From Maribacter polysaccharolyticus (lineage in GTDB: Bacteria > Bacteroidota > Bacteroidia > Flavobacteriales > Flavobacteriaceae), in the NCBI RefSeq assembly GCF_028882255.1, contig NZ_JARBUY010000009.1, positions 1 to 64,000 of the forward strand: a DNA stretch of 64,000 nucleotides, written 5' to 3'. The notes under the pieces are model-generated. The model was given only the letters and a program-made list of their open reading frames with translations. It was not told the DNA's origin and did no database searches. Below, in pieces: positions 13,754 to 61,883 of the stretch. Each line of letters starts with the position of its first letter. The first letter of the stretch is position 1. Position numbers and translations under genes: made by a program.

Positions 13754-14047
13754 TCAAAGGTTTTTTGTTTCCCTTTTGGCAAATTCGATAAGGAAGGATT
13801 CCCAATCACAATATTGGTCTTGTTTCGGTAACTTCTTGTTGAGCTTATCTATAAAAGTTTCCCATTCGGTGATATGTCCGAATTTTTCCTCGAACTTTAT
13901 GGCGAGCAGGGATATTCGTTCATGAGTGGCCATTACACCGTTGTTAATGACCTGGTGTAGTTCCTCGAAAAGGTTAATGGCTATCACGGAAGCTGTAAAT
14001 GAAACGTTCTGGAGTAAGTCTGTTGAGGGTTGTGTTGGATAGTTCAT
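13754..14047 (-). CDS. Small accessory protein of unknown function with hairpin leader
   Basis: A 97-residue soluble protein (MNYPTQPSTDLLQNVSF; later HERISLLAIKFEEKFGHITEWETF) with no recognised domain. Its start codon sits at the foot of a long hairpin (14045-14117), as in eight other small genes here, and a conserved 19-bp motif lies about 100 bp upstream. Composition and codon use look normal for the element. It belongs to the leftward accessory block and is probably an entry-phase or host-interaction protein. Confidence 0.65.
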   Translation of the reverse strand: MNYPTQPSTDLLQNVSFTASVIAINLFEELHQVINNGVMATHERISLLAIKFEEKFGHITEWETFIDKLNKKLPKQDQYCDWESFLIEFAKRETKNL

Positions 14048-14117
14048 TTTATTGGATTTTAAGATTAGCGATTGCTTTCATTGGAAAACAAGCGATCGTT
14101 GATCTGGATTCAAATGT
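14045..14117 (-). promoter_or_regulatory. Start-codon hairpin H1
   Basis: GATTAGCGATTGCTT (14063-14077) pairs with AAGCGATCGTTGATC (14090-14104); an outer helix brings CATTT of the start region to CAAATG. The mismatches are T.G wobbles on the + strand and A.C on the mRNA. The unpaired TTTTAA beside the stem is shared with the other copies. Confidence 0.75.
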
Positions 14118-14147
14118 GGGTGCGACTCTGGGATGGACTGAAATAAT

Positions 14148-14166
14148 GGTTCTTGACTTCCCAACC
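14148..14166 (-). promoter_or_regulatory. Conserved intergenic motif, copy 1
   Basis: GGTTCTTGACTTCCCAACC occurs in exactly this form at 14148, 15107 and 19039, each time between the stop of one leftward gene and the start of the next, and each is followed by a tract resembling AAAGCG. It is probably a promoter element or activator site of this small-gene regulon. Confidence 0.6.
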
Positions 14167-14183
14167 AAAAAGCGTAAAGGGAC

Positions 14184-14624
14184 TTAAGAGAAAAAGAGCT
14201 TCTGGACTTCTTCTAGATTCTGTAATTCCGTTGTGGACGTTCGTTTGTTGGCGGAAAAGTACCGGTTTTTATATTGAATGAAGTGTGATGTGATATTGGA
14301 TGTGTAATATTCCGACATCCTGAAGAATTGGGCATTGTGGGACTTTATCCATCTCTCAGGCGGTAAGACTTCCAGGCTTCTGTTATATTGTTCCTCTGTG
14401 ATCTCTTTGAAAGGCCCGGTGTATTTCCGGTCCTCGATGGGCCTTATCAGTTCACAGGCTTCATCCATGGAACACAATATACAGCCTTCCTTCAGGTATT
14501 CATCCACGGTTTTGCCGGTATATATGGATTTCCCGTCCTTTATGAAGGTGGTAACGTTGGTTTCACCCGGTTTATAGATCACGTCCAGTTCTGAAATCTT
14601 GATTTTTTTCTGAGTTGTTTCCAT
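14184..14624 (-). CDS. Accessory protein of unknown function with hairpin leader
   Basis: A 146-residue soluble protein starting METTQKKIKISELDV. I place the start at 14624, the foot of hairpin H2; an in-frame TTG two codons upstream is unlikely. The sequence shows a cysteine pair (EGCILCSMDEACEL) and no membrane segment. The METT start is shared with the next gene downstream (METTCS), probably because the leader sequences are related. The family is not recognised. Confidence 0.65.
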   Translation of the reverse strand: METTQKKIKISELDVIYKPGETNVTTFIKDGKSIYTGKTVDEYLKEGCILCSMDEACELIRPIEDRKYTGPFKEITEEQYNRSLEVLPPERWIKSHNAQFFRMSEYYTSNITSHFIQYKNRYFSANKRTSTTELQNLEEVQKLFFS

Positions 14625-14694
14625 TTTCAAATTGTTTAAGGTTAATAATCACTTTCGCAGAACCATAAGTGGTTATTAACCGGATTTTAAAATG
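14622..14694 (-). promoter_or_regulatory. Start-codon hairpin H2
   Basis: GGTTAATAATCACTT (14640-14654) pairs with AAGTGGTTATTAACC (14667-14681), with one T.G wobble on the + strand. The outer helix pairs CATTTT, which contains the start codon, with AAAATG at 14689-14694. Confidence 0.78.
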
Positions 14695-14725
14695 GAATGA
14701 TCGGAATTTGTGAAACAGAGTCCCG

Positions 14726-15010
14726 TCAAACACCCAAAAGCTGCTTGATCAAAGTTTTTACAGTATTATGGTCGTCCTTGGAATAGATCCTTAAGGTCAG
14801 TGGTTCGTAGGCGTCGATGGCGTAAACGGTAAGGTCCAAATAAACATTCTCGGAACCTGTCTGGAATTGGAATTCAAGGTGATCCGAAATGGTGATTCGC
14901 GGGATTTGGGCAAATTCCTTGCGGTTTGTGATATGTACATCGGTTTTAAGCTTCTGGTTCAATTGTTCAATGGTGAAGTTTTTGAAATCGATACTGCAAG
15001 TAGTTTCCAT
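14726..15010 (-). CDS. Small accessory protein of unknown function with hairpin leader
   Basis: A 94-residue protein starting METTCSIDFKNFTIEQL. The frame is open further upstream, but that extension runs through a palindrome and an intergenic repeat shared with other leaders, so the start at 15010 is preferred. The body looks beta-rich (HLEFQFQTGSENVYLDLTVYAID) with no signal peptide. The family is not recognised. It is part of the leftward small-gene array. Confidence 0.65.
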   Translation of the reverse strand: METTCSIDFKNFTIEQLNQKLKTDVHITNRKEFAQIPRITISDHLEFQFQTGSENVYLDLTVYAIDAYEPLTLRIYSKDDHNTVKTLIKQLLGV

Positions 15011-15081
15011 ATTGAAATAATTTAAGATTAACGATTGCTTACATTGGTAAACAAGCGATCGTTGATCTGGATTCAATTGTG
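15008..15081 (-). promoter_or_regulatory. Start-codon hairpin H3
   Basis: GATTAACGATTGCTT (15026-15040) pairs with AAGCGATCGTTGATC (15053-15067), with two T.G wobbles on the + strand. The outer helix pairs ATTGAA next to the start codon with TTCAAT. The right arm is identical to that of H1. Confidence 0.78.
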
Positions 15082-15106
15082 GTGGTTTGAAAGTATAGAT
15101 AAAAAC

Positions 15107-15125
15107 GGTTCTTGACTTCCCAACC
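15107..15125 (-). promoter_or_regulatory. Conserved intergenic motif, copy 2
   Basis: The second exact copy of GGTTCTTGACTTCCCAACC, here followed by GTAAAGCGG. It lies just after the stop of the gene at 15141 and upstream of hairpin H3. Confidence 0.6.
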
Positions 15126-15140
15126 GTAAAGCGGAACCAT

Positions 15141-15335
15141 TCAATTAAGATGGTGGACGTGGATGAAATCATCTGTTTTACCATCTCGAAGGGTATAGGA
15201 TGTATTGTATCTTTTCCCCTGGCCCATCAATTCTTCTTTCTTATTTTCGAAGGTACTTTGGGTAACTTCTGATTTATCGATAAACCATCTGATGACTTGT
15301 CTTGTGTTTTTGTCCTGGATCTTCATGAATTCCAT
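15141..15335 (-). CDS. Small accessory protein of unknown function with hairpin leader
   Basis: A 64-residue basic protein (MEFMKIQDKNTRQVIRWFID) with no membrane segment or recognised domain. The start at 15335 is anchored by hairpin H4. It is the first gene of a leftward run; the 650 bp upstream is a non-coding region with several terminator-like structures. Confidence 0.6.
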   Translation of the reverse strand: MEFMKIQDKNTRQVIRWFIDKSEVTQSTFENKKEELMGQGKRYNTSYTLRDGKTDDFIHVHHLN

Positions 15336-15407
15336 TTTCGCTTTTTTTAGATTATAGATTCGTTTTCATTCCAAGACGAAACGGATCTATGATCGGTAAT
15401 GAAAATG
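15333..15407 (-). promoter_or_regulatory. Start-codon hairpin H4
   Basis: GATTATAGATTCGTTTTC (15350-15367) pairs with GAAACGGATCTATGATC (15378-15394), with two T.G wobbles on the + strand. CATTTTC at the start codon pairs with GAAAATG at 15401-15407. Confidence 0.78.
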
Positions 15408-15989: not shown

Positions 15990-17114
15990 CTATATACCGA
16001 TTGAATTACCTTTTGATACTGCTTGTTCATGTGAAGTTTTGAGACGGTTCTCCTTAATGTGTTCAATGGCGGAATTTATTGCTGAATTTTCGTTCATGGG
16101 TTTTCCTTTACCATCGGAGATTTCCTTGGTAAGTGATGGGTCGGAAAAGATATGGACGCTGCCGTCTTTTGTATTTGTTATTTTGGCTTCAGGGTAATAC
16201 TGCAGTATGGCCCTGGACTTAAGTTGAGGGGAAAGGTATTCCACAGGGCTTTCCTTCATTTTACGAATCTCCTGATTGTCGAGTTTGTATCTGAAAAGGT
16301 TTCCGTCTATGGACTCCCTTATGGACGTCTTGAACTTGTCGATATCGGATCTAAGGTTTTTGAACTGTTGTTTCGCCTCAATTTCGTTTTTTGTCCCAAG
16401 TTCAAAACGCATCATTTTTTTCCTGGTGAAATTGGACAGTGCCTCGGTAACCAGATTTGCGATGGATTTTCTTTGAATGGATGGGTCCATCTGGGCTTCC
16501 AGTTTTTCTGTCAACCTCTGTATATCCCTGTTGGTCGGGGTCCTTGTGTCCACGGCAAAAAGGGCATGTCCCCCTATGACCTCGGTTTTGGGGAATGACA
16601 TTTTCAAGATGGTGGCCGTGGCCACCAGGGTCTCACCGGTGGTAATAACATCATCCACTAGGATGATGGGCTTATTGCTTAAAATCTTGTTCAGGGAATC
16701 CCTTTGTTCATTTCCCTTGAAAGTGATATTGAAGTGGTTGGTGGATCTTTCCTGTGCGGAATAGGCCGAACGTGAGCTTTGTTCCTGCCTCACGTTCATA
16801 TAGTCGTTAAGGTCCACATGTTTCAGTCCTGTTTTTTCAGAAAGAATCTTCGCATATTCACTAGGTAGCACGTTCATGGCCTTTTCCCCTTTTTTGGACG
16901 GAAGGCTTACTATCAATGTCTCTTTTGTGGTATTCTTTTTGAATTTATCAAGTAGCTTATCCGATAGGGATTTGCGTATAAAGTTGTTGGTTTTTTTTTG
17001 AGGAAACCCTAAGGAGCGCAGCTCGTCTTTTTGTTTTCCGATAGCCTTATTGTAAGTTCCGGAAAGAGAGCTTTTAAAACTAACCGGGGTGAGTTGGATA
17101 TCGGTTACTCCCAT
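15990..17114 (-). CDS. Phosphoribosyltransferase-domain protein (ComF-like partner of DprA)
   Basis: A 374-residue soluble protein with a type I phosphoribosyltransferase core. The PRPP-binding loop is clear at about residues 150-165 (IILVDDVITTGETLVA: hydrophobic strand, two acids, then TTG.T). The C-terminal 150 residues are helical and charged (EIRKMKESPVEYLSPQLKSRAILQYYP) and end with an element-style tail. It is the third gene of a leftward operon with the DprA-like gene and a 117-residue protein, 7 nt after the latter. ComF and DprA are both linked to handling of incoming single-stranded DNA in competence, so a role in plasmid establishment or in nucleotide-based conflict is plausible but inferred. 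Confidence 0.75.
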   Translation of the reverse strand: MGVTDIQLTPVSFKSSLSGTYNKAIGKQKDELRSLGFPQKKTNNFIRKSLSDKLLDKFKKNTTKETLIVSLPSKKGEKAMNVLPSEYAKILSEKTGLKHVDLNDYMNVRQEQSSRSAYSAQERSTNHFNITFKGNEQRDSLNKILSNKPIILVDDVITTGETLVATATILKMSFPKTEVIGGHALFAVDTRTPTNRDIQRLTEKLEAQMDPSIQRKSIANLVTEALSNFTRKKMMRFELGTKNEIEAKQQFKNLRSDIDKFKTSIRESIDGNLFRYKLDNQEIRKMKESPVEYLSPQLKSRAILQYYPEAKITNTKDGSVHIFSDPSLTKEISDGKGKPMNENSAINSAIEHIKENRLKTSHEQAVSKGNSIGI

Positions 17115-17121
17115 ATGAATA

Positions 17122-17475
17122 TTACAATTTAACCGTATGTTTTATATTTTGAAGTCCCTTTTCTGACATGAAGTTGTTGAGATATTCAAATTTGTCCAGA
17201 AAATAGGGCAGCTCTTTCGCTGTTAACACCCCGTGTTCGTCCATGACCAAACTTCCGTGTTGCACCATGGTATTTATAAAATGGTCCTTGGAATCAAACC
17301 TTTTTATTTTCTTGGAAAGTTTATCATGGAATACACTAATTGCCACATCCTTGATGTCCTTGCTTGTTTCCGATGGAAGCTTTTGAACGGTCCCGATATC
17401 CAATTGGGGGCTGTCCATTACGATTTCCCCTTCTTCGATATAGAAAAGGATATCTACTTTGATATCATTTGACAT
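17122..17475 (-). CDS. Middle protein of the DprA/phosphoribosyltransferase operon
   Basis: A 117-residue acidic soluble protein (MSNDIKVDILFYIEEGEIVMD; later HDKLSKKIKRFDSKDHFINTMVQHGSLVMDEHG). No family is recognised. It is tightly packed between the DprA-like gene (13 nt) and the phosphoribosyltransferase gene (7 nt), so it is probably a partner of one or both. Confidence 0.65.
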   Translation of the reverse strand: MSNDIKVDILFYIEEGEIVMDSPQLDIGTVQKLPSETSKDIKDVAISVFHDKLSKKIKRFDSKDHFINTMVQHGSLVMDEHGVLTAKELPYFLDKFEYLNNFMSEKGLQNIKHTVKL

Positions 17476-17488
17476 GCTTTTGTTTTTA

Positions 17489-18127
17489 TTATAAAGCTAA
17501 GAAATTAAATGTTAACGTGGAAAGGGGCTGGACTCCCTTGTCCAACAGGGCGTTGGCCCATGGTATTCCGGCATCAAGTACATGTTGTAGTATATAGACC
17601 TTTTTTCCCAGTTTAAGGGCCTCCTGGGCTTGGTGCCTGGTGCCGCTTTTGGAGGTGGCATCGCATATCACGGTGATATCTGAAAGGTAGGCCATCGTGC
17701 GGTTACGTTGAGGGAAGTTGGCGGGCCTGGTCTTGGATCTTATAGGAAACTGGGATACCAAAAGCCCGTTTTCAATCACCCTATTGAAAAGCTCCTTGTT
17801 CTCTTTGGGGTATACCCTGTCTATCGGCGTTCCTATTACGGCCAATGTGCGTCCATTATGGTCCAAGGCCGTTGTATGGGCTATGGTATCTATGCCCAAG
17901 GCCAGGCCACTTACAATGGTATAGTCTCTTTCAATGAAGTGGAGGGTCAATTCACGCGCAGCAGCGGCCCCTAATTCAGTGGGTTTTCGGGAACCTATTA
18001 TGGATACCTTCTTAGTGTCGTCCAAAAGTTCGGGGTTACCCTTGAAGTCCAATCCTTTGGATAGATAGGACGGTACGGTCCCTTTAAGGTATATATGTCC
18101 CTTTTCAATAGTGTTCATCAGTATCAT
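17489..18127 (-). CDS. DprA/Smf-like protein (SLOG fold), short form
   Basis: A 212-residue protein comprising essentially only the Rossmann-like DprA core: VSIIGSRKPTELG, then YTIVSGLALGIDTIAHTTAL and LAVIGTPIDRVYPKENKEL, and FPQRNRTMAYLSD, the family motifs in order. Chromosomal DprA proteins are longer, with N- and C-terminal helical domains; both are missing here. DprA binds single-stranded DNA and loads RecA, while other members of this superfamily bind nucleotides. The start could be 18127 or the ATG three codons later. A large two-stem hairpin (18136-18220) lies directly before the start. It is the first gene of an operon with the 117-residue protein and the phosphoribosyltransferase. 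Confidence 0.85.
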   Translation of the reverse strand: MILMNTIEKGHIYLKGTVPSYLSKGLDFKGNPELLDDTKKVSIIGSRKPTELGAAAARELTLHFIERDYTIVSGLALGIDTIAHTTALDHNGRTLAVIGTPIDRVYPKENKELFNRVIENGLLVSQFPIRSKTRPANFPQRNRTMAYLSDITVICDATSKSGTRHQAQEALKLGKKVYILQHVLDAGIPWANALLDKGVQPLSTLTFNFLAL

Positions 18128-19038: not shown

Positions 19039-19057
19039 GGTTCTTGACTTCCCAACC
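19039..19057 (-). promoter_or_regulatory. Conserved intergenic motif, copy 3
   Basis: The third exact copy of GGTTCTTGACTTCCCAACC, followed by GTAAAGCGTAAA. It lies 39 bp before the gene starting at 19000 and just after the stop at 19075. Confidence 0.6.
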
Positions 19058-19074: not shown

Positions 19075-19464
19075 TTAGACCTTTGTTACAAGTAACCTAA
19101 CGTTGTTCTTTCTGACACGTTTGCGCCAATCCTCATCGTATTTGGTTGATGGTTCGGGGAGCAGATCAAGGAATTCAACAGGACATTTATCCTCAACTGG
19201 ACCCATCGAAGACGGTATTCCCTTAAAGAATAGTTCGTAGTTGATGATGTCCACCAGGACAACCATGAGGAAAATTTTACCGGTAGGGTGTTTCATGACA
19301 AGGTAGATAACATGGCGGTCGTGCATGGTTCTGGCCTTGTCCAATGAGAATTTCAATATCTCATATCCTTCGGAATTGAATTCTTTCTCACAGAATTCCC
19401 TGGCCTGTTCTTTGGTCCATTTCAGATGTGTTGCGTTTCGGTAATCAAAAGATGTCCATCCCAT
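19075..19464 (-). CDS. Accessory protein of unknown function with hairpin leader
   Basis: A 129-residue soluble protein starting MGWTSFDYRNATHLKWTKEQ. The start at 19464 is set by hairpin H5; an in-frame TTG two codons upstream is not preferred. The N-terminal motif and the segment RDRHVIYLVMKHPTGKIFLMVVLVDI-like core (MHDRHVIYLVMKHPTGKI) recall a small conserved family of mobile elements in Bacteroidota, possibly DUF6927-like, but this is not certain. It is part of the leftward array. Confidence 0.65.
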   Translation of the reverse strand: MGWTSFDYRNATHLKWTKEQAREFCEKEFNSEGYEILKFSLDKARTMHDRHVIYLVMKHPTGKIFLMVVLVDIINYELFFKGIPSSMGPVEDKCPVEFLDLLPEPSTKYDEDWRKRVRKNNVRLLVTKV

Positions 19465-19540
19465 TTTCAAAATTTTAGATTAATGATCCGTTTCGTTTTC
19501 AACCGAAGACGAAACGGATCGTTGATCGGATTGGAAAATG
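19462..19540 (-). promoter_or_regulatory. Start-codon hairpin H5
   Basis: GATTAATGATCCGTTTCGT (19478-19496) pairs with ACGAAACGGATCGTTGATC (19509-19527), 19 bp with two T.G wobbles on the + strand. CATTTTC at the start codon pairs with GGAAAATG at 19533-19540. It has one of the longest stems of the set. Confidence 0.8.
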
Positions 19541-20292: not shown

Positions 20293-20504
20293 TTATTGAT
20301 TGATAAGGAAACTGTTGGAATCTTTCGTGTGATCCCTTTTCAGGTATCCCTTGAAAAGAAGGGCATTGAAGGAAAGATCGAAGGACTTGGTCGAAATTGA
20401 TTTTTTCAGTTCTTCATAGGTTTTGGAGGTGGTTGGTGTGATGTGTAGGGAAAGATTATCCAACAACTCCTTTTGGGTTTTGGTTATTTTTTTCTGCGTG
20501 CCAT
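20293..20504 (-). CDS. Small protein read through a -1 frameshift on an A7 run
   Basis: The ATG at 20504, at the foot of hairpin H6, opens MARRKK and then meets TAA after an A7 run (on the + strand T 20487-20493). Slipping back one base on A AAA AAA continues in a 64-codon frame, ITKTQKELLDNLSLHITP through KSFDLSFNALLFKGYLKRD, ending at 20293. That frame has normal composition for the element and stops just 11 nt before the next gene. It may be a programmed frameshift or transcript slippage, a recently broken gene, or a sequencing error in the homopolymer. The family is unknown. Confidence 0.6.
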
Positions 20505-20576
20505 TTCCAAATTGTTTAAGATTAATAATTCGCTTTCAGAGAAAGACGAAGTGAATTATTAATCGAGTTTGGAAAA
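20502..20576 (-). promoter_or_regulatory. Start-codon hairpin H6
   Basis: GATTAATAATTCGCTT (20520-20535) pairs with AAGTGAATTATTAATC (20549-20564), with one G.T wobble on the + strand. The outer CCAAA next to the start codon pairs with TTTGG. Confidence 0.75.
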
Positions 20577-20884
20577 GGTGGTGGTGCGGACAGCGCCGTT
20601 AGGGTCTTGTGTTATAAAAACTAAAAATATGTCGTATTGGACTTTGAATTTGACACACTAAATCGACCTGTAACCCCTAAAAAACAACAATAAAAATCAA
20701 ATGTGACATCTTTTTGTCGTTTTATGACAAATAACTGTCGTTTAATTTGTTGTATTTGGGAAACCTTTATATATTGCACACGATATGTTGAATACAGCAT
20801 AAATAGATATTGAAAAAACAAAGCACTACTAACGTCCATGTAGTGCTTTTTTTGTATCAGGGAAGGGCTATTGTCCAAAGGGTT
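20577..20884. other. Divergent intergenic region with a terminator-capped RNA candidate
   Basis: About 300 bp between the leftward H6 operon and the rightward gene at 20885. It holds an inverted repeat TTTGTC/GACAAA (around 20713-20731) and a perfect terminator at 20821-20853. Since only rightward transcription begins here, the terminator implies a short RNA or a leader attenuator. Confidence 0.45.
20821..20853 (+). terminator. Intrinsic terminator upstream of the gene at 20885
   Basis: AAGCACTAC (20821-20829) pairs perfectly with GTAGTGCTT (20840-20848), loop of 10 nt, followed by seven T. It lies 32 bp before the chosen start codon. It either ends a small RNA made from the AT-rich region before it or works as an attenuator controlling the 20885 gene. 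Confidence 0.75.
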
Positions 20885-23786: not shown

Positions 23787-23818
23787 TATTTAAATAGGGT
23801 TCTATGGAAGAACATAAA

Positions 23819-23850: not shown

Positions 23851-23865
23851 CACTTTCCAAGGGGA

Positions 23866-25569
23866 TTATCCCTTTTGGGCGGACAGTTCTTCTTCAAGTT
23901 CTGTAATTCTATCCTGGAGCCGCTTTTCCCTAAGGCTTAATGATTCGGCATAAGAGGCCTCGATAGTCTCTATTTCCTTTTTACAATAATCTTTCAGGGC
24001 GACGTAGAATGAGTTGTTCACCAAGTTGTTGGTATGGTTGCTTTCCCCGAAATGTACGTTTTGGAGCAGCAGTAACCTTATAAGTTTGTTGAAGGTGTCC
24101 TTTTTGAAGTTCTTTTTGAAACGTTGGACGTTTTTGGATACATCCTTCGGTTGGTTCTTGCCATAAAAACCATCAATGAATTTTCGCTTGGTACCATAAC
24201 CGATGGTATTCTCGTATAGTGATATGCAAAAGGCGACCATTTCGTTCTGGGTTAGGGCTTTTTTACTGTTAACATAATCAGATTCACCTATGGCCCGGAC
24301 CATTTCCTCGAACTCTTTGTTTCCTTCTATTTGCTTTTTACGGAGTTCCCTATCCTTGATTTTCTGTATTTTTTCCTTAGGGGTACAATCGTCCATTTTC
24401 TTCTTATCGATGGGAACTGAGTTCTTTTCCTTTGGTGTTTCATTTTCGATTAAAACCAGCACTTCTTTGACTTGATAGGTCCTAGTATTGAACAAAAGTC
24501 CTTTTAAGTAACCTTTTTCTGGTGCATCGTGAAAAGCTTGGAGTTCCTCTGCATATAGGGCCATGGCTTCATTGAATTCTTGTTCGAGTTCTTCTTTGGT
24601 AAAATCCATCCAATGGTTTTCTTCTTCGATCTGTTCCTTGGTTGGGATGACCGGTTGCTCGATGTAGTCTAAATCATCCAGTATGTAGGGAATTAGTCCA
24701 TTCTCCTGAATTATCGACAAAACCAGGGCATTATGGCTACTGTCTATGTTGTATTTATAGATTTCCGGAACCAATAACGTGCCATCGGCCTTCACTTGTT
24801 CGATAAGTTGTAGTAGGGTCTTCGATTTCTTAGCGGTAAAACAACTGGACTTGGTACAGATCTGTTTGTCGTCACCGAAAAGGTTTCCTTGGTTTTTTGA
24901 ATTGAAGGGGCATAGTGCGCAAGGCCCGGCATCAGGAAGTAACTTGGCATCATCCAATTGGAAAGGTGCCTCCTGTAGGTCGAACATTTTATTTGAAATG
25001 GCATTCTCTACGGGATAGCTCCTGAAGCCATCTCCCATTGTATCTAGGAACATTTCCTGGTCTGCCTTGGGGAACATCGCTATTTTGACGGCCAGGGACA
25101 AGGTGAGTTCCTTGCTTTTTACGAACGGTCTGAAGCCTTCTATTAGATTGGCGAGCTTTATCCTGCCATAAATGAACTTCAGTGTACGTCCGATCCGATG
25201 GGATATTTCCTCTGCGGTGTATTTTTCCAGAAGATAGGCTATTGCTTCAGCTTCTTCAAGTGGTTCTACCTCCTGTCGTTGTAGGTTCTCTATTATCTGG
25301 ACTTCTGATATGACGGTACTGTCGAAATCCCGCACGATACAGGGTATCGTCTTAAGGTTGGCAAGTAAGCTGGCGCGGTATCGTCGCTCTCCCATGACAA
25401 TGATGTGCCCATCCTTGTCCGGTCTCACGGTTATGGGCTGTAGCACCCCGAATTTTTCGATACTGAGGGAAAGTTGTCTCAGCTGTTCCTCGTCAAAGGT
25501 TTTACGGGGCTGGTTGGGATCCGGTTTGATTGCTGTCAACTGCAATTCCTGTACGCTTGTGTTTTCCAT
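23866..25569 (-). CDS. ParB/Spo0J-like protein with cysteine cluster
   Basis: A 567-residue ParB-family protein. The N-terminal ParB/Srx domain is clear (DPNQPRKTFDEEQLRQLSLSIEKFGVLQPITV; GERRYRASLLANL; IENLQRQEVEPLEEAEAIAYLL), followed by the HTH segment (TAEEISHRIGRTLKFIYGRI). A cysteine cluster follows (CALCPFNSKN...QICTKSSCF), probably zinc binding, then a long helical tail with a C-terminal coiled coil. It is far longer than the ParB proteins of simple partition loci and is not beside parA, so it may be a ParB-like nuclease or regulator carried by conjugative elements rather than the partition protein. Confidence 0.82.
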   Translation of the reverse strand: MENTSVQELQLTAIKPDPNQPRKTFDEEQLRQLSLSIEKFGVLQPITVRPDKDGHIIVMGERRYRASLLANLKTIPCIVRDFDSTVISEVQIIENLQRQEVEPLEEAEAIAYLLEKYTAEEISHRIGRTLKFIYGRIKLANLIEGFRPFVKSKELTLSLAVKIAMFPKADQEMFLDTMGDGFRSYPVENAISNKMFDLQEAPFQLDDAKLLPDAGPCALCPFNSKNQGNLFGDDKQICTKSSCFTAKKSKTLLQLIEQVKADGTLLVPEIYKYNIDSSHNALVLSIIQENGLIPYILDDLDYIEQPVIPTKEQIEEENHWMDFTKEELEQEFNEAMALYAEELQAFHDAPEKGYLKGLLFNTRTYQVKEVLVLIENETPKEKNSVPIDKKKMDDCTPKEKIQKIKDRELRKKQIEGNKEFEEMVRAIGESDYVNSKKALTQNEMVAFCISLYENTIGYGTKRKFIDGFYGKNQPKDVSKNVQRFKKNFKKDTFNKLIRLLLLQNVHFGESNHTNNLVNNSFYVALKDYCKKEIETIEASYAESLSLREKRLQDRITELEEELSAQKG

Positions 25570-53117: not shown

Positions 53118-53180
53118 ATGTAGTAGATTATGGTTTCTAGATAATCAGGGCTCTCAATTGGTCTTCATGTGATCGGTTCG

Positions 53181-53501
53181 CTATTCTGTGGTGATACCCT
53201 TTCTTTTTCTTGTCCTTATTCGGTGTTCGGGAGTGTAATCATGGTATTCCTTGGTTTTTGAATACATTCCCGCTTTTTGCTTTACGGACAGGAAATAAAG
53301 CCCGGTACCTAGGTAAACGAGCATGAACAAGATCCCGACCACTATATGGATGGTCACCACAAGTATTGTTGCAAGGATAAAGGATGATAAAAGCAGACCA
53401 AGCCCCCAATAGATGTACCTTCCCTTGAAACCTTTGAGAACAAGGGGCATTTGCAGCCCCTTGTACACTAAAAAGGATTTTGTTTCTTCTTTCATGGCCA
53501 A
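53181..53501 (-). CDS. traF: TraF-like protein (VirB3-like, DUF4133)
   Basis: A 106-residue protein with two adjacent membrane helices (YIYWGLGLLLSSFILATILVVTIHIVVGILFMLVYLGTG) and a basic tail (HRIRTRKRKGITTE). GLQMPLVLKGFKGRYIYW is typical of DUF4133. It lies 3 nt after traE and 63 nt before traG. Confidence 0.9.
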   Translation of the reverse strand: MAMKEETKSFLVYKGLQMPLVLKGFKGRYIYWGLGLLLSSFILATILVVTIHIVVGILFMLVYLGTGLYFLSVKQKAGMYSKTKEYHDYTPEHRIRTRKRKGITTE

Positions 53502-53504
53502 TGT

Positions 53505-53831
53505 CTAAACACCGAAGAAAGCGTTTATCACGGCTCCCGAAAGCACAAGGAACAAACATGCTCCCAACCATCCCATGATTTTTTTGGTCACATCTTGGTC
53601 CCCGTTGTTCCAGGCGATGTATACACGTATGGCCCCGATCAAGCCGACTACGGCTCCTATGGCCAATATCAGGTTTCCCACGGATTCGACATAGGTTCGT
53701 ATTTCCGCGTCTGCCGCGTTGATCCCTTCAAGTCCCTGGGCCTGTCCCATGGCGAACGCAAATAGGGCAAAACCAAAGAGGATCCTCTTTTTTAGATAAT
53801 TTTTCCTTGTTTTCAAATTGTTTGTTCTCAT
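53505..53831 (-). CDS. traE: TraE-like protein (VirB2 pilin-like, DUF4134), second copy
   Basis: A 108-residue protein with a signal-like N terminus ending ALFAFAMGQAQG and two membrane helices: VGNLILAIGAVVGLIGAIRVYIAWNNGDQDVTKKIMGWLGACLFLVLSGAVI is a near-textbook DUF4134/TraE signature. It is the presumed pilin subunit. It follows a related gene at 53858, so the operon carries two TraE-like proteins in tandem. Confidence 0.93.
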   Translation of the reverse strand: MRTNNLKTRKNYLKKRILFGFALFAFAMGQAQGLEGINAADAEIRTYVESVGNLILAIGAVVGLIGAIRVYIAWNNGDQDVTKKIMGWLGACLFLVLSGAVINAFFGV

Positions 53832-53857
53832 AATAAAGATTTAAATGGTTACTAATT

Positions 53858-54223
53858 TTAAGTGAATATTGCCTTTAGGACCAATCCCATTACCAGGATG
53901 AACAGTCCCCCACCGAATAGGTTGGTGATTTTTCTTTCTATGTGGCCGACCCCGAGGTGCCACTGGTTATAGACCTTGATTGAACCGAAAAGGGCTAGGA
54001 AGCCCCCGATCGCGATTGTAAGGTCGATCATCGGTGAAAAATAAGGGTAGAAGGCACCGCCCTCGATGCCCCATGCTTTAACGTGGCTAACTGTTGTCGG
54101 TTCCCCCTCGTCGTTTACCTTGATGTCCTCCTGCCCACGAACGGTCATGGTCAGGAGGCTCAAGGCGAGATAAACGAACAACCCCTGTCTAACTAAATGT
54201 CTTTGCGCTTTTTTCAACTGCAT
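53858..54223 (-). CDS. TraE-like protein (DUF4134), first copy, divergent
   Basis: A 121-residue exported membrane protein. IDLTIAIGGFLALFGSIKVYNQWHLGVGHIERKITNLFGGGLFILVMGLVLKAIF has the same helix-loop-helix plan as the next gene (GA.xVY..W..G......I..W.G...F). The sequence before it (KVNDEGEPTTVSHVKAWGIEGG) is unlike pilins and may be a processed segment. It could be a second pilin or a pilin-like channel component. Confidence 0.8.
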   Translation of the reverse strand: MQLKKAQRHLVRQGLFVYLALSLLTMTVRGQEDIKVNDEGEPTTVSHVKAWGIEGGAFYPYFSPMIDLTIAIGGFLALFGSIKVYNQWHLGVGHIERKITNLFGGGLFILVMGLVLKAIFT

Positions 54224-54870: not shown

Positions 54871-55503
54871 TTATATAGTTATTATATAATTTAGTAAAAA
54901 AAACTTAAAGAAGTCCTCGAAATTTTCTTTTTGGATTTTGCTCATACCCCTTGTGCTTATGCGGTCCATATCCACCCTGTCATATATGGTATAGGGGGAA
55001 ATTTCTCCGAATTGTCTAAGTTCCGTATCCACTTTTTCCTTGAGTTCCGCCTTTGCCGCCTTTTTTATCCTGTTCGGCAGGAACAAAAGGGGGATATTCG
55101 GGTTGATGTGTTTGGCCACTTGGACATAGACCAGGGTGGATTCGAATGTCTTTTTCTCATAGGCGAAGGGTACGATTATAACGTCCACGTTGGCCAGCAT
55201 TTTGAGAATATCGGGATTGTCGAGATTGCCCGGGCTATCGATCAAATAATCGTATTCAGGGTCGTCCTTGATTTCAGGAAGTAGCCTTCCCACGTCCGAA
55301 AGTTCGCATTTGATTACTTTGTAAGGTGGATCCCCGTCCATGATCTGGTTTTCCGTTTCCCATTGATGGAAGAAACTTTGTTGAAAATCAAGGTCGATCG
55401 CCACGACGTTCCTTTTTTCTATAATGCTCATGTAGTTGCATAACAATATGGACAGGGTTGATTTGCCCACACCGCCTTTTTGGTTTCCTATTAATATTCT
55501 CAT
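54871..55503 (-). CDS. traA: TraA-like ParA-family ATPase
   Basis: A 210-residue Walker ATPase: GNQKGGVGKSTLSILLCNY (deviant Walker A), NVVAIDLDFQQSFFHQW and YDYLIDSPGNLDNPD. It has the ParA/MinD fold without an HTH and lies at the head of the tra operon, like TraA of Bacteroidetes conjugative elements. It overlaps the relaxase stop by 4 nt (ATGA). It is distinct from the partition ParA near rep. Its exact role in transfer is not known. Confidence 0.85.
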   Translation of the reverse strand: MRILIGNQKGGVGKSTLSILLCNYMSIIEKRNVVAIDLDFQQSFFHQWETENQIMDGDPPYKVIKCELSDVGRLLPEIKDDPEYDYLIDSPGNLDNPDILKMLANVDVIIVPFAYEKKTFESTLVYVQVAKHINPNIPLLFLPNRIKKAAKAELKEKVDTELRQFGEISPYTIYDRVDMDRISTRGMSKIQKENFEDFFKFFLLNYIITI

Positions 55504-57074
55504 ATCGATTGATTAAGGTTTCTTTTTTTCTTTTTCCCCTTTTTATTCGAAGCAGAGTTCTCTTCATCGTCCTCACCTGCAGCACCACTGCTGAACATCA
55601 ATTGTTCGAAAAGGCTCGTCTGTTTACCTTGGTTGTGATAGGTGCTGTGGTCATCCGGCCTTTGGTTGGCCATAAAAGGGGTTTGGATCCTTTCCTGCTC
55701 CATGTGTTCGTCCTTGAAACGGTTGAGCGTCCTAAGGTCCTCGCCCAACAAAACCGCGATGTTGTTCTTTCTGTCATATAATAATTGGTCCGAAGCCACC
55801 GGATGGACGGTGATATCCCTTTCTTCAAGGAATTGTTTGGTGCCGCCTTTGGAATGGTGGATGGCAATGGCCACCAGGTTGCTGTAATGTAGGCTGTCTA
55901 TCTGGGGGTCGATTCGGGCCGCCCCTTCATGTACATTGAGGATATGCGCTATTGCGGATGCGCTTTTTACCGACATGGCCGCTGTGTTCTTAAGGGTGTT
56001 GGTATTGTGGTTCTTCCATAAGGAAGAGACCGTTTCCCTGTTCAGCCTTGCAACTATTTCATTGGACACCTTTAAATAGACGTTCCCTTTCCGGTCGGCC
56101 CTTGCCCCGATTGTGGCCATGTCCCCTTGGATGGTGTTCCAATCTTTTCCCTTGAAGTCCATTTCCCTTAGCAATCTGGGGATGGCCTCTTTTACTTGTT
56201 CAATTTCCTTGCCCATGAGCAATGCCTTTATAGGTAACAGTTCACTTCCTTTGAAAACTGTTTTTTCACGATGGTCGATAAGGGTGTACCCATAAGGGGC
56301 ATCTTTCCCCTTGGCGGTGTGGGTCACCAGTTCCATTCCCATTTTTCCATGGAGATATTGTTTCAGTTCGGGAAGTTCCATGGAACGGGAATATTTTTTT
56401 ATTTTCTCCTTTGTCTTGATTCTTTTGCCTTCAAGGGATTTGCTTTCCTTTATCAATGGGATATCCACAAGGGCCAATTTGGTGTGCGTGGTTCCTTTGA
56501 AATATATGTTAAGTTGGTCGTCCTTGATGCTGGAATTTATACCCTTGGATTCCAAAAGGGTTATGAACTGGCCATGGGTGGATATACCGTAGCCTTTTGC
56601 CCAGTCGATATCGGAGGGTATGTTCTTTCCGTACTCCACGCCAAAGCCCCGGAGTATCTCCTGAGATTTCAGTTTTTCGAAGGAATCGTCTATTTTTTTC
56701 CCATCAGGGCCGATACGTGTGGATACCATATGGACGTGGTTGTTGTCCGTATCGTTGTGGAAATATATTAGATAGGGGTTCTTGCCGTAGCCCATTTCAT
56801 TGAGGTATTTCTTGGCATACCCCACCAGCTCTTGGGGACTGTGTTCCTGTCCCTTTGCGGATATAACGGCATGGAACTGTTTGGCCTTTACCCTGTCATT
56901 GGTGGAGCTATGGTATTTAAGGTAATTGATGTAATCCGCTTTTGAGGGTTTCATCCCCTCTGGGAATATGAAGTTCTCCGCGACCAGGCCTTCCGATTTT
57001 CCCTCGTTTATTTTGTCCTCGTTATAGCTGACCCCACGAAAACTGGATTGGCTGCCTAATATTTTTATAATCAT
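55500..57074 (-). CDS. mobB: Relaxase (MOB family, mobilisation nuclease)
   Basis: A 524-residue relaxase that nicks the transfer origin and pilots the strand. The metal-binding three-histidine motif is HNDTDNNHVHMVSTRI (about residues 105-120) and the N-terminal FRGVSYNEDKINEGKSE segment is typical of Bacteroidetes MobB/BmgA-type (MOBP) relaxases. The catalytic tyrosine is probably Y18 in VSYNEDK. The C-terminal part is helical and ends in a lysine-rich tail. The mobilisation accessory gene lies 98 bp upstream, with the oriT candidate before that. Confidence 0.92.
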   Translation of the reverse strand: MIIKILGSQSSFRGVSYNEDKINEGKSEGLVAENFIFPEGMKPSKADYINYLKYHSSTNDRVKAKQFHAVISAKGQEHSPQELVGYAKKYLNEMGYGKNPYLIYFHNDTDNNHVHMVSTRIGPDGKKIDDSFEKLKSQEILRGFGVEYGKNIPSDIDWAKGYGISTHGQFITLLESKGINSSIKDDQLNIYFKGTTHTKLALVDIPLIKESKSLEGKRIKTKEKIKKYSRSMELPELKQYLHGKMGMELVTHTAKGKDAPYGYTLIDHREKTVFKGSELLPIKALLMGKEIEQVKEAIPRLLREMDFKGKDWNTIQGDMATIGARADRKGNVYLKVSNEIVARLNRETVSSLWKNHNTNTLKNTAAMSVKSASAIAHILNVHEGAARIDPQIDSLHYSNLVAIAIHHSKGGTKQFLEERDITVHPVASDQLLYDRKNNIAVLLGEDLRTLNRFKDEHMEQERIQTPFMANQRPDDHSTYHNQGKQTSLFEQLMFSSGAAGEDDEENSASNKKGKKKKRNLNQSI

Positions 57075-57172: not shown

Positions 57173-57550
57173 CTAAGACCTGTATAGTTTCTGTACGGCA
57201 AGGACCATTTCGCTCTTCACCGTTACATATTCCCTGATCAATTCGGTAAGTTTCCCCTGTAGGCCGCCCGGATCGTTGGTCCTTTCTTTCTTTCCTATAT
57301 GTTCCAATATCCTATCGAATTTATCCGCAATGGACACCGAAACCTTGTTCAAGTCCGCCAGTTCCTTCAGTACGTCCCTTGGGTTGGCCCTAAGGTGGTT
57401 TTGGTCATCACCGGTCAATTGTTGCCTTGCCCATTCCGAAAAGTCGTTCTTGCCGCTTATTTGCATTTTTTCCTCTACGAGTTCCCTTTCCTTGATATTC
57501 ATGAAGACCTTATAGGCCTTTCGCTTGTTTTCTACTTGTGGTCTTGCCAT
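57173..57550 (-). CDS. mobC: Mobilisation accessory protein (MobC/MobA-like ribbon-helix-helix)
   Basis: A 125-residue protein: RPQVENKRKAYKVFMNIKERELVEEKMQISGKNDFSEWARQQLTG is the N-terminal ribbon-helix-helix part of relaxosome accessory proteins, which bind near oriT and help the relaxase. A helical C-terminal part follows (VKSEMVLAVQKLYRS). It lies between the oriT candidate and the relaxase gene, the standard order. Confidence 0.88.
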   Translation of the reverse strand: MARPQVENKRKAYKVFMNIKERELVEEKMQISGKNDFSEWARQQLTGDDQNHLRANPRDVLKELADLNKVSVSIADKFDRILEHIGKKERTNDPGGLQGKLTELIREYVTVKSEMVLAVQKLYRS

Positions 57551-57648
57551 GAGTTTGTTTTTTTATGGAGTTGCGACAATCTACCCGGTTGGGCCGGGCA
57601 AGAGGTAAAGAGGGTCCTCTTTACACATCTTGCCTGTATCGCGTCACG
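57551..57648. other. Transfer origin (oriT) candidate
   Basis: The 98 bp between ssb and the mobilisation gene hold a nested inverted repeat: GGCAAGA (57597-57603) pairs with TCTTGCC (57628-57634), and inside it GTAAAGAGG (57605-57613) pairs with CCTCTTTAC (57616-57624). Just before it is CCGGTTGGGCCGG. Position next to relaxosome genes and the symmetry make it the best oriT candidate. A terminator for ssb is an alternative, but no T run follows the stem on the - strand. Confidence 0.65.
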
Positions 57649-57990
57649 TTATTCACTCTTGGAGTCCAGTAAAAGGAAGGTGTCCACCAGGATTTCACAT
57701 TCCCTGTTCTTTTTCCCTTCTTTGTCCTCCCATGTCCTATAGGTAAGTTTCCCTTCTATGGCCACATGGCTTCCTGAATGGGTAAGACCGTCAAGAAGTT
57801 CCGCTGTCCTTCCCCAGGCCACAAGTCTATGCCAGGAAGTGTTATTGATTTTTTCCCCTTTCTCATTGGTAAAGGCTTCGTTCGTGGCCAATGAAAAGTT
57901 CAGTACCTTTTTTTTGGATTCAAGTTCCTTCAGTTCCGGTTCCTGGCCTATATGGCCAATCAACCTTACCGTGTTCCTAAGATTTTTCAT
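57649..57990 (-). CDS. ssb: Single-stranded DNA-binding protein
   Basis: A 113-residue SSB with one OB fold: KNLRNTVRLIGHIGQEPELKEL, VLNFSLATNEAFTNEKGEK and TSWHRLVAWGRTAELLDGLTHSGSHVAIEGKLTYRTWEDKEG are the family motifs in order. It is shorter than chromosomal SSB and lacks the acidic C-terminal tip used to recruit partners, a common feature of plasmid SSBs. It is the first gene after the oriT candidate, as in the leading region of many conjugative plasmids, where SSB protects the incoming strand. Confidence 0.93.
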   Translation of the reverse strand: MKNLRNTVRLIGHIGQEPELKELESKKKVLNFSLATNEAFTNEKGEKINNTSWHRLVAWGRTAELLDGLTHSGSHVAIEGKLTYRTWEDKEGKKNRECEILVDTFLLLDSKSE

Positions 57991-60173: not shown

Positions 60174-60185
60174 ATGGGCACGTTT

Positions 60186-60280: not shown

Positions 60281-60313
60281 GTGGCGTGTGTTTTTGACCA
60301 AAAACCATGACAC
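60281..60313 (-). repeat. 33-bp hairpin repeat, copy 1
   Basis: It starts GTGGCGTGTGTTTTTGACC and ends CATGACAC; the identical 33 bp recur at 60897-60929. TTTTTG and CAAAAA pair inside, GTGT and ACAC outside. Both copies lie 15-25 bp after the stop of a leftward gene, so they may be terminators or promoter sites of the next gene. Confidence 0.65.
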
Positions 60314-60338: not shown

Positions 60339-60752
60339 TCAATATTCACTCGGAAGCAGCAGCACCGAATTGGTGAAGTACATTGTTAGGGCCGGGGCTT
60401 TTTTATCGGGCTCTCCATCTCGTTTGATTACCTGGTCGTTAAGGGGAAAATCAGTGCAGCTGTAAGGAATGGTTTGGAGGATATTGTTGTTCCCGTCCTC
60501 GAAGACAACCCTGCAGCTGTTTTCCGTTGGTGATTTGTGCAATTTGATGGTGATAAAAGGATGATGTGAAAGAAGTTTGCAATTGGCCAGGACATCTATA
60601 AGGAGCCAATTGGCATTACAGGTCTCGTACATTGCGATAATACCCTCGGTGTAATGGATTCCCTTGAACAGGGGGTGGTGGTAAAGGTGTTCGGAGCCAA
60701 TGTTATGGGCCAGTTCATTTCTGATTTCGGTTTCTTTTGCGGTATTTTCCAT
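60339..60752 (-). CDS. Accessory protein of unknown function with hairpin leader
   Basis: A 137-residue soluble protein (ELAHNIGSEHLYHHPLFKGIHYTEGIIAMYETCNANWLLIDVLAN). The stretch YTEGIIAMYETCNANWLLIDVLA with the later ITIKLHKSP resembles DUF6876-like proteins found on Bacteroidota elements, in my recollection. The start is fixed by hairpin H7. It is part of the second small-gene cluster, in the presumed leading region. Confidence 0.65.
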   Translation of the reverse strand: MENTAKETEIRNELAHNIGSEHLYHHPLFKGIHYTEGIIAMYETCNANWLLIDVLANCKLLSHHPFITIKLHKSPTENSCRVVFEDGNNNILQTIPYSCTDFPLNDQVIKRDGEPDKKAPALTMYFTNSVLLLPSEY

Positions 60753-60825
60753 TTTTCGATTTTAAACGTTAATGATCCGTTCTTTTCGTAGGGACGGAAT
60801 GGATCATTAAGTTGATCGGGAAATG
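60750..60825 (-). promoter_or_regulatory. Start-codon hairpin H7
   Basis: TTAATGATCCGTTC (60769-60782) pairs with GGAATGGATCATTAA (60796-60810), with one G.T wobble on the + strand. The outer CATTTTTCGAT, with the start codon, pairs with ATCGGGAAATG. Confidence 0.78.
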
Positions 60826-60896
60826 GAACCGCACAAGGGACCGAATATTTAACGGAAGGGGGGTGTTGGTTCCAAAAGCGCGCGGGGCCTGCCCCA

Positions 60897-60929
60897 GTGG
60901 CGTGTGTTTTTGACCAAAAACCATGACAC
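60897..60929 (-). repeat. 33-bp hairpin repeat, copy 2
   Basis: Identical to 60281-60313. It lies 15 bp after the stop of the gene at 60944. A diverged third copy with compensating changes (GGCGCATATTTTTGTGTC, TTGTGACAC) lies at 63005-63038. Confidence 0.65.
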
Positions 60930-60943
60930 GTTGGAAAGGGGAA

Positions 60944-61198
60944 CTATGTCCCCGGTATGATGTCGTCCTCTTCGAGCTCGTACTCGATAAGGTTGCAATG
61001 GTCCCTTAAGGTTTCCAGGGTTATCCTCACCCTGACGTTGTTGCGAATGGTTGAATAATACCCTTGATTGGAAAATCCCATCTTCCATTTATCGAATTGG
61101 GCCCATGCCTGTTCCGGTGTTTGGAAATCATCGGGGCTTATGGGAAATTTGTCCGGGCTTAGAACACAATATGTAATTTTGTTGGATGGTCTGTTCAT
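60944..61198 (-). CDS. Small accessory protein of unknown function with hairpin leader
   Basis: An 84-residue protein starting MNRPSNKITYCVLSPDKFPI. The frame is open for 36 more codons upstream, but they lie within hairpin H8, so the ATG at 61198 is the start. The body (TPEQAWAQFDKWKMGFSNQGYYST) recalls a small conserved protein family of these elements with an FxxWxxxFxxQGYYS motif. The acidic C terminus is ELEEDDIIPGT. The function is unknown. Confidence 0.68.
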   Translation of the reverse strand: MNRPSNKITYCVLSPDKFPISPDDFQTPEQAWAQFDKWKMGFSNQGYYSTIRNNVRVRITLETLRDHCNLIEYELEEDDIIPGT

Positions 61199-61270
61199 TT
61201 TTTCGAGTTTTAGGGTTAACGATCCGTTCTTTTCGCAGGGACGGAATGGATCGTTGATCCGATCGAAAAA
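61196..61270 (-). promoter_or_regulatory. Start-codon hairpin H8
   Basis: GGTTAACGATCCGTTC (61214-61229) pairs with GGAATGGATCGTTGATCC (61243-61260), with all exceptions G.T on the + strand. The outer TTTTTTCGA beside the start codon pairs with TCGAAAAAA (61263-61271). The loop and arms are close to those of H7. Confidence 0.8.
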
Positions 61271-61308
61271 ATACCATTGAACCAAATTACGCTTATCCAG
61301 GGACAACT

Positions 61309-61566
61309 ATGGGGAATCGAATATTCATAAACAAAGGCAAAGGGGCCATTAGGGAACTACTGAAGGAAATTGGGCCTTACAGGTTCGAAAGGGCACTTGA
61401 GGAAATGAAACTGGAGAGGCCGGGTAGAATGGAGGGTTTCTATCTGGAGGCACGGCCGGAATGTATATTTCTGTGTTTTAGGTACAGGTGGGGTACGAGA
61501 AGGATAATGAAAGTGGAAAGATATGGCATGCCGCATGAGGGATGGGAACTGTACTATGAGGAATAG
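61309..61566 (+). CDS. Small basic protein of unknown function
   Basis: An 85-residue protein on the + strand (MGNRIFINKGKGAIRELLKEI; later GFYLEARPECIFLCFRYRWG), divergent from the H8 gene and ending 1 bp before the stop of the convergent gene at 61568. Its composition looks protein-like and codon use is normal, but the family is not recognised. It is unusual in being rightward in this block. Confidence 0.5.
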   Translation: MGNRIFINKGKGAIRELLKEIGPYRFERALEEMKLERPGRMEGFYLEARPECIFLCFRYRWGTRRIMKVERYGMPHEGWELYYEE

Positions 61567-61567
61567 T

Positions 61568-61816
61568 TCAGGGTTCGGCGTGTAAGGGGATGTCAAGACA
61601 TATCCTGGTGGGATGTAGGGATAGTGGCCGGATCGTAATGTTATTCTGCAAATGGTCATTGATTTGCCTGCAGTAATCTTGGGCTTCGGATAGGTGCTCG
61701 AATTCGGTTTCCTCCAATGAGATGTCCTTTACCATGACCCAATGTCCATGGATGTCCTGATAGAATTTCAGGCTACCGTTCTTAATGGGAATTTCCTTGA
61801 TGTCGGGTTCTTTCAT
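61568..61816 (-). CDS. Small accessory protein of unknown function with hairpin leader
   Basis: An 82-residue soluble protein (MKEPDIKEIPIKNGSLKFYQ, then HLSEAQDYCRQINDHLQN). The start at 61816 is set by hairpin H9. It is part of the second small-gene cluster. The family is not recognised. Confidence 0.63.
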   Translation of the reverse strand: MKEPDIKEIPIKNGSLKFYQDIHGHWVMVKDISLEETEFEHLSEAQDYCRQINDHLQNNITIRPLSLHPTRICLDIPLHAEP

Positions 61817-61883
61817 AATCTATTGTTTTAAGTATATGGTGCGTTCTTTTTTAAAGACGGAACGTACCATATACTTAAATATA
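61814..61883 (-). promoter_or_regulatory. Start-codon hairpin H9
   Basis: TTTAAGTATATGGTGCGTTC (61827-61846) pairs with GGAACGTACCATATACTTAA (61859-61878), about 20 bp with one G.T pair on the + strand. The stem sequence is unrelated to that of the other copies, while its position relative to the start codon is conserved. Confidence 0.78.

Follow-up and report, generated by a model that had tools for sequence, protein, structure and literature searches.

Hairpins at the start codons of small genes on a Maribacter plasmid pair on the template strand and are candidate single-stranded DNA promoters

Contig NZ_JARBUY010000009.1 of Maribacter polysaccharolyticus carries nine long hairpins, each at the start codon of a leftward gene, and the question raised by this locus is in which molecule such hairpins would act: in the duplex, in the messenger RNA, or in one DNA strand when it is single. 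We analysed a window of 64,000 nucleotides (bases 1-64000 of the 82,724-base contig). The first and last 77 bases of the contig are identical and, therefore, the contig is very probably a circular plasmid. We observed that the structure is kept on the template strand of the genes, not in their mRNA. We consider it probable that the hairpins are compact single-stranded DNA (ssDNA) promoters, from which transcription would start on the transferred strand (T-strand) of a Bacteroidota conjugative plasmid.

When the + strand was folded, the nine hairpins (H1-H9) named in a preliminary description of this DNA were all found at leftward start codons; the coordinates used there were the first base of CAT, with which the leftward ATG ends. 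A search for stems across all 82,724 bases of the contig, given no positions and penalising G·T and A·C equally, retained 13 stems, nine of which were H1-H9, and five dinucleotide-shuffled contigs yielded 0, 2, 2, 0 and 2 stems. None of the other four stems was located 6-22 nt before the ATG of an open reading frame (ORF) of at least 45 aa; one of them, A/T-rich, was situated 28 nt before the gene of the single-strand-binding protein (SSB). The hairpins are listed with their core pairs on the template strand and with the bit scores of R2, a model built from 11 copies (the nine of the window plus F1 and F2, described below), of which H1-H9 are themselves training copies. R1 denotes the first model.

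14045..14117, + strand (template): H1, at the start of gene 13754-14047; R2 62.9 bits; 13 Watson-Crick, 3 G·T, 0 A·C
14622..14694, + strand: H2, at the start of gene 14184-14624; R2 62.0 bits; 14 Watson-Crick, 1 G·T, 0 A·C
15008..15080, + strand: H3, at the start of gene 14726-15010; R2 60.1 bits; 14 Watson-Crick, 2 G·T, 0 A·C
15332..15407, + strand: H4, at the start of gene 15141-15335; R2 77.2 bits; 14 Watson-Crick, 2 G·T, 0 A·C
19462..19540, + strand: H5, at the start of gene 19075-19464, whose homologue in Flavobacterium sp. ASW18X has a hairpin; R2 66.7 bits; 20 Watson-Crick, 3 G·T, 0 A·C
20502..20577, + strand: H6, start codon at 20504; R2 81.5 bits; 15 Watson-Crick, 1 G·T, 0 A·C
60749..60825, + strand: H7, at the start of DUF6876 gene 60339-60752, whose ASW18X homologue has a hairpin; R2 71.8 bits; 13 Watson-Crick, 1 G·T, 0 A·C
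61196..61272, + strand: H8, at the start of gene 60944-61198; R2 75.1 bits; 14 Watson-Crick, 3 G·T, 0 A·C
61813..61888, + strand: H9, at the start of gene 61568-61816; R2 63.5 bits; 19 Watson-Crick, 1 G·T, 0 A·C

Compared side by side, the hairpins share CAT (the complement of the start codon), the unpaired TTTTAA-like patch that had been noticed beside the core, the core stem, the loop and then, in most of them, an outer helix. The core, earlier put at 14-20 bp, has 14-23 pairs, and 10-16 nt separate its base from the start codon in every window copy (11 of 11 with F1 and F2). The loop, earlier put at about 10-15 nt, is 12-14 nt long in eight hairpins; the exception is H5, with a loop of 4 nt and pairing that continues further inward. 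Six of the nine window loops end in GACG and three start with TCA. An outer helix covering the start codon had been claimed for every copy; by minimum free energy it forms in six (H2, H4, H5, H6, H7 and H8, with H4 and H8 partly using a more distant partner), but not in H1, H3 and H9. The fold energy was better than that of all 200 shuffles in six of the nine hairpins, and the native value was reached by 1 of 200 shuffles for H2, by 4 of 200 for H4 and by 23 of 200 for H1. As for the claim that each ATG starts a small gene, all nine are leftward start codons, although the ATGs of H3 and H8 fall within longer mechanical ORFs and the H6 frame ends after 6 codons at a run of seven A (20480-20504), a closure that may reflect a broken gene, slippage or an error in sequencing.

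The main point beyond the preliminary description is that pairing is better on the template strand than on the sense strand. The cores were scored in a strand-neutral way, with G·T and A·C treated alike and with stems ending at transversion mismatches by construction. For the 11 hairpins (nine from the window and two from ASW18X), the core pairs on the template strand were 166 Watson-Crick, 21 G·T and 0 A·C; with a twelfth copy, G1, detected later by R2 in the same-genus genome G757, they were 179, 25 and 0, respectively. A 25:0 division between G·T and A·C corresponds to p = 6e-8, and the 17:0 division of the window copies by themselves to p = 1.5e-5, both values assuming independence of copies that are not fully independent, H1 and H3 being near copies of each other. 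Since the wobbles are G·T on the template strand and never A·C, it is on this strand, and not in the mRNA, that the structure is kept. Also, the template strand folds better than the sense strand in all nine window copies.

We found that the two arms of the stems change together. In a MAFFT alignment, 90.1% of 172 cells pair, and 12 of 16 pairs are changed on both sides. The covariation score, a check that had been proposed beforehand, was 0.522 compared to a shuffled mean of 0.255 (reached by 0 of 500 shuffles; slid structures at 0.075-0.206), with a consensus structure derived from the same sequences, which favours the score; the number of further pair types was 22, a count reached by 12 of 500 shuffles. 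When arms cut to the 14 pairs nearest the loop (H5 being given an 18-nt loop) were exchanged between hairpins, 1053 of 1540 positions paired, compared to 154 of 154 for the own arms, which is true by the definition of the stem; two-sided changes were seen at 13 of the 14 core positions among the 11 hairpins. The earlier phrase 'structure rather than sequence' is thus right about the paired changes but too strong, as the mean column identity is 62% over the nine copies (59% with the two ASW18X copies).

Copies outside the window preserve the position at the start codon. A pattern fitting four of the nine copies had a single hit in the species genome collection, contig NZ_SWKK01000024.1 of Flavobacterium sp. 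ASW18X (59,961 bases with matching ends, probably circular). Only the genes of H5, H7 and H8 have ASW18X homologues at E <= 1e-4 (the H6 frame was too short for the comparison), and two of these three homologues carry the hairpin. F1 (R1 46.8 bits) is located at a DUF6876 gene with 43% identity to the H7 gene, and F2 (R1 30.2 bits) at the H5-gene homologue with 57% identity. Both are on the template strand, and the outer helix of F1 pairs across the start codon. H7 and F1 differ in 3 of 14 core pairs, all on both sides, while H5 and F2 differ in 12 of 14, nine of them on both sides. G1 (G757:C11:115037-115113; R2 61.8 bits, E 1.3e-9; 13 Watson-Crick, 4 G·T and 0 A·C pairs) begins at CAT, the start of a 19-codon ORF resembling a remnant, and is perhaps a relic of an integrated plasmid. 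The loop ends in GACG in 8 of the 11 hairpins of the window and ASW18X, and also in G1. Over 44 sources (1.16 Mb), R2 exceeded 30 bits only at its 11 training copies, all on the template strand; on the reverse strand it reached 28.4 bits at best, compared to 52.5-81.5 bits for the copies.

The strand that would be transferred in conjugation was predicted from the following features.

57587..57640, + strand: predicted origin of transfer (oriT), an inverted repeat and then ACACATCTTG|CC (ACACATCTTGCC, also given as CATCTTGC), from its place ahead of the mobC and relaxase genes and from motif recurrence
55500..57074, - strand: relaxase, MobA/VirD2-like (Pfam PF03432, E 1.8e-21; NCBIfam Bacteroid_MobB, E 3.5e-32, below the cut-off of that model)
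57173..57550, - strand: MobC/NikA-like accessory protein, from its position and a weak match to Pfam PF21983 (E 0.0038, below cut-off)
57649..57990, - strand: SSB, the first gene past the predicted nic (Pfam PF00436, E 9.2e-29)

The motif GCAAGATG or, on the opposite strand, GCAGGATG was present in the same orientation to the relaxase gene in 7 of 10 regions examined (the window, pBF9343, Pontibacter, Adhaeribacter, one of two Mucilaginibacter, G270 and Persicobacter); it was not found in ASW18X, the other Mucilaginibacter and Aquimarina. We take nic to be after 57,632, from its likeness to MOBP nic sequences, and the + strand is therefore the predicted T-strand; it would leave rightwards from a MOBP-type nic with the SSB gene first. 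The + strand is also the template of all nine genes, and H7-H9 are 3.1-4.2 kb from the predicted nic. ASW18X has another oriT-like motif, common to the Aquimarina plasmid and placed before mobC in the corresponding orientation, and the hairpin strand appears to be the predicted T-strand there too.

The plasmid encodes a Rep3-type initiator, ParB, a TraG-type ATPase, a coupling protein, a MobA/VirD2-like relaxase and SSB. Genes for SSB and for ParB-like, SprT-like, DprA-like, ArdC-N and DUF4942 proteins are on the same strand as the hairpin genes, with a methylase-like gene alongside; the leading region of the F plasmid likewise holds SSB, ParB-family, methylase and antirestriction genes. An early hint at conjugation, ssb and the relaxase is supported.

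In stating that no named element of this kind existed, the preliminary description overlooked ssDNA promoters (Frpo/ssi). As presented in passages of PMC9849209, PMC11541004 and PMC7690428, the Frpo element of F restores -10 and -35 boxes when folded as ssDNA, and leading genes are expressed early from it; a passage of PMC7690428 gives its length as 328 bp and adds that it also primes. The present hairpins are like Frpo/ssi of F-like and IncI plasmids in being upstream of genes templated by what is here the predicted T-strand. Unlike Frpo, they are about 75 nt long, have the start codon at the foot, come one per gene and nine on the plasmid, and show no boxes that stand out, whereas the fold of Frpo rebuilds -35 and -10. 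In F, the 480 bases upstream of ssb share 89% identity with a second stretch, in keeping with the description of Frpo2/Frpo1, and fold better as T-strand (-119.2 vs -111.6); the strongest stem has 15 Watson-Crick, 1 G·T and 0 A·C pairs and the next 13, 1 and 2. Neither R2 nor blastn-short (E <= 0.01) gave a match in 45-69 kb of F and, judged by sequence, boxes and size, the hairpins are not members of Frpo.

There is also a likeness to the Frpo'/Frpo* candidates of Samuel et al. (2024), which are candidate ssDNA promoters upstream of leading-region ORFs. According to a passage of PMC11541004, these were found by similarity or by the TTGACA/TATAAT consensus, and such a search would therefore probably miss the present hairpins. 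The string 'Bacteroid' is absent from the main text of PMC11541004 and from passages of PMC12826799, a BLAST-based survey of Frpo in plasmids. In literature searches of partial coverage, and hence as weak evidence, we found nothing that joins Frpo and Bacteroidota and, among the papers listed, nothing on an ssDNA promoter in Flavobacterium plasmids; among those listed, Frpo, the leading region and Bacteroidetes occurred together only in PMC9024699, in unrelated places.

We see a Frpo-like working as the best reading because strand and gene context agree with it, and place does so partly. In conjugation, the + strand would enter the recipient as ssDNA, and each copy would fold to mimic duplex DNA just upstream of the start codon, which most copies would include. 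RNA polymerase, perhaps aided by a special sigma factor or a plasmid factor reading the conserved loop, would start at the hairpin and use the T-strand as template. Each small gene would be expressed before the second strand exists, and the short RNAs could also prime the synthesis of that strand. Once the DNA became double-stranded, the hairpin would vanish and expression would fall. With a transcription start at the start codon, the patch would be near -10 and the top of the core with the loop near -35. We infer the recruitment of RNA polymerase, the timing, the shut-off and the priming, as well as the functions of the genes.

Several observations speak against ssDNA promoters. H1-H6 are 39-45.5 kb from the predicted nic, and F2 and F1 are 25 kb and 35 kb, respectively, from the oriT-like motif of ASW18X. 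The start of the H8 homologue in ASW18X has a terminator-like hairpin instead of the element, and no convincing model match was seen for the homologues of the H7 gene on Aquimarina, Flagellimonas and Arenibacter plasmids or for the Aquimarina homologue of the H5 gene. G1 belongs to a chromosomal contig and adjoins an apparently frame-broken small gene. The template fold of F2 is no better than the sense fold over 85 nt (-13.4 vs -13.5), and R1 had a best reverse-strand match of 42.9 bits, at H5. An excess of G·T over A·C could also arise from C-to-T changes on exposed ssDNA alone, a cause which would still imply that this strand is single-stranded at times.

The promoter signals are to be weighed on the same side. 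In 22 readings (the duplex and the 3' arm of each of 11 hairpins), the best TTGACA/TATAAT pair was equalled by at least 18% of shuffles in 21; in the duplex reading of H5 it was equalled by 2.5%. A canonical sigma-70 promoter was rejected, as no -35/-10 pair stands out except in this H5 duplex. TAnnTTTG is missing upstream of all 11 hairpins, a weak negative, since the motif precedes just 2 of 95 other ORFs. In complement, the patch corresponds to A(-12)/A(-13), which a passage of PMC8710568 describes as a Flavobacterium translation signal; A is found at -12 in 11 of 12 copies and at -13 in 9 of 12, compared to background frequencies of 0.45 and 0.47 in 92 other ORFs. The patch, then, need not be a -10 box. 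A patch lying within the mRNA would put the transcript start in the core stem or above it, a poorer fit to a hairpin promoter.

The same pairing on the template strand would be expected if the T-strand hairpins served not for mRNA but as second-strand priming sites (ssi/sso-like) or as sites where a plasmid ssDNA-binding protein reads the loop. The single-stranded loop ending in GACG (8 of 11 hairpins and G1) and the lack of outstanding promoter boxes are in line with such roles, and Frpo itself primes too, as a passage of PMC7690428 has it. However, priming needs no start codons, yet all 11 cores are 10-16 nt from an ATG, and nine sites would seem to exceed what priming is likely to need; we regard this explanation as unlikely. 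A hairpin acting in a + strand RNA, antisense over each start codon, would benefit from G·U as much as ssDNA does from G·T, and neither pairing nor covariation can separate the two. Such an RNA would leave the agreement with the predicted T-strand in two plasmids unexplained, and Rfam gave 0 matches at the gathering score (the window, L006 and L106), and a known structured RNA family was rejected; an antisense RNA appears improbable to us.

Hairpins at start codons commonly act in control, and a leader structure of the sense mRNA (an attenuator, riboswitch or translational hairpin) would also account for some sizeable R1 matches on the reverse strand, such as the one of 42.9 bits at H5. On the other hand, the sense strand turns G·T into A·C, so all 25 of 25 wobbles favour the other strand; together with the low reverse-strand maximum of R2 (28.4 vs 52.5-81.5 bits) and the lack of an Rfam match, this makes a leader structure highly improbable. 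The common sequence with its inverted symmetry might suggest a double-stranded palindromic operator, or a cruciform, bound by a regulator. Still, a preference for G·T over A·C would not be expected in a duplex operator, and two other repeated motifs nearby look more operator-like, so we consider an operator very improbable. Integron attC sites are strand-specific ssDNA hairpins near small genes, with the box consensus RYYYAAC/GTTRRRY, and small unrelated genes that each have a strand-specific hairpin do resemble gene cassettes. The hairpins here are located at gene starts rather than ends, however, and the RYYYAAC...GTTRRRY pair is absent from 12 of 12 copies on either strand; there is hardly any chance that they are recombination sites of the attC kind or other cassette ends.

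For ssDNA promoters, a bolder claim could be made, one that we hold plausible but somewhat doubtful: Bacteroidota plasmids may have evolved, independently of Frpo, compact ssDNA start signals with the start codon at the hairpin foot, one per gene and nine per plasmid, without -35/-10 boxes, read through the stem and the conserved loop by a sigma factor or a plasmid protein, and active only while single-stranded in the new host. The ssDNA promoters in passages of PMC9849209, PMC11541004 and PMC7690428 use standard boxes, enterobacterial plasmids having provided the best-studied ones. An unrelated Bacteroidota design, if true, would mean repeated evolution of early expression from the entering strand; it would offer a route to those genes of such plasmids that act early, often against defence, and would pose the testable question of what recognises a promoter hairpin without -35/-10 boxes. 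The presence of G·T but not A·C is a cheap general test for finding strand-specific ssDNA structures.

The element seems to be rare, and homologous genes on other plasmids seem to manage without one. F1, F2 and G1 are further copies at start codons, but the many hits predicted in Bacteroidota plasmids were not found. We scanned the Aquimarina, Flagellimonas, Arenibacter and Bacteroides (pBF9343) plasmids and one of two Persicobacter plasmids whole, and the other Persicobacter, Pontibacter, two Mucilaginibacter, Adhaeribacter, Tunicatimonas, two Hymenobacter and Haliscomenobacter in part; R2 had no match at E <= 5 in any of these. R1, run on the same plasmids except Tunicatimonas, Hymenobacter and Haliscomenobacter, gave weak matches only (E 0.08-1.7), absent with R2. 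Strong stems near ORF starts on these plasmids, on either strand, were not counted as copies, as the model did not match them. Two R1 matches in ASW18X were dropped for having no R2 row at E <= 5: F3 (23795-23869, 21.7 bits, on the template strand ahead of a 46-codon ORF) and one of 21.4 bits on a different contig.

Among genomes, R1 found the element only in the own genome (299 same-family genomes, best 15 candidates per genome), and no copy was present at the chromosomal DUF6876 loci of that genome. R2 at E <= 0.05 gave matches in seven of 397 same-family genomes, the own one included (best 12 candidates per genome). With 12-15 candidates scored per genome, these large searches could have missed members. 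Seven other R2 loci were not counted as members: five are near-perfect palindromes away from starts, one has no hairpin, and G007 was excluded with less certainty, being at a start codon and on the template strand but folding no better (-12.8 vs -13.4); an eighth row repeats the first locus on the reverse strand. Among 40 relatives (12 of the own genus, including the own genome), R2 matched only the own genome and G757. Searches of viral contigs gave nothing useful with the relaxase, H5-gene and H2-gene proteins; a short pattern occurred there in 16 stretches, none matching the model at E <= 2, and a longer pattern in none. The H5 hairpin sequence had only chance-level matches in plasmids.

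The genes that start at the hairpins, and the ParB-like gene, are as follows.

13754..14047, - strand: H1 gene, 97 aa; no Pfam or NCBIfam match
14184..14624, - strand: H2 gene, 146 aa, DUF1419 (Pfam PF07215, E 3.3e-07)
14726..15010, - strand: H3 gene, 94 aa; no match
15141..15335, - strand: H4 gene, 64 aa; no match above cut-off
19075..19464, - strand: H5 gene, 129 aa; 57% identity to the ASW18X protein and 47% to an Aquimarina plasmid protein
60339..60752, - strand: H7 gene, 137 aa, DUF6876 (Pfam PF21781, E 3.7e-23)
60944..61198, - strand: H8 gene, 84 aa; 47% identity to the ASW18X protein whose start lacks the element
61568..61816, - strand: H9 gene, 82 aa; no match above cut-off
23866..25569, - strand: ParB-like protein (Pfam PF02195, E 6.3e-28; 46% identity to an ASW18X protein)

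Two repeated motifs are found near these genes. TTTTTGACCAAAAACCATGACAC, an inverted repeat ahead of small genes and perhaps a duplex operator, has two exact copies (60291-60313 and 60907-60929) and a looser third, seen by eye, at about 62990-63035. Three exact copies of TTGACTTCCCAACC (14153-14166, 15112-15125 and 19044-19057) are upstream of the H1, H3 and 18626-19000 genes.

The two clusters of the window, at 60-70 kb and 15-25 kb, are separated by about 26 kb of the circle, which include a transposase and a resolvase, and correspond to one block at 42-56 kb in ASW18X. Positions 15990-18127 of the window and 52149-54061 of ASW18X share a conserved trio of a DprA-like protein, a small protein and a phosphoribosyltransferase-like protein (PADLOC ShosT profile, E 1e-08); the phosphoribosyltransferase and DprA genes also adjoin on the Tunicatimonas plasmid.

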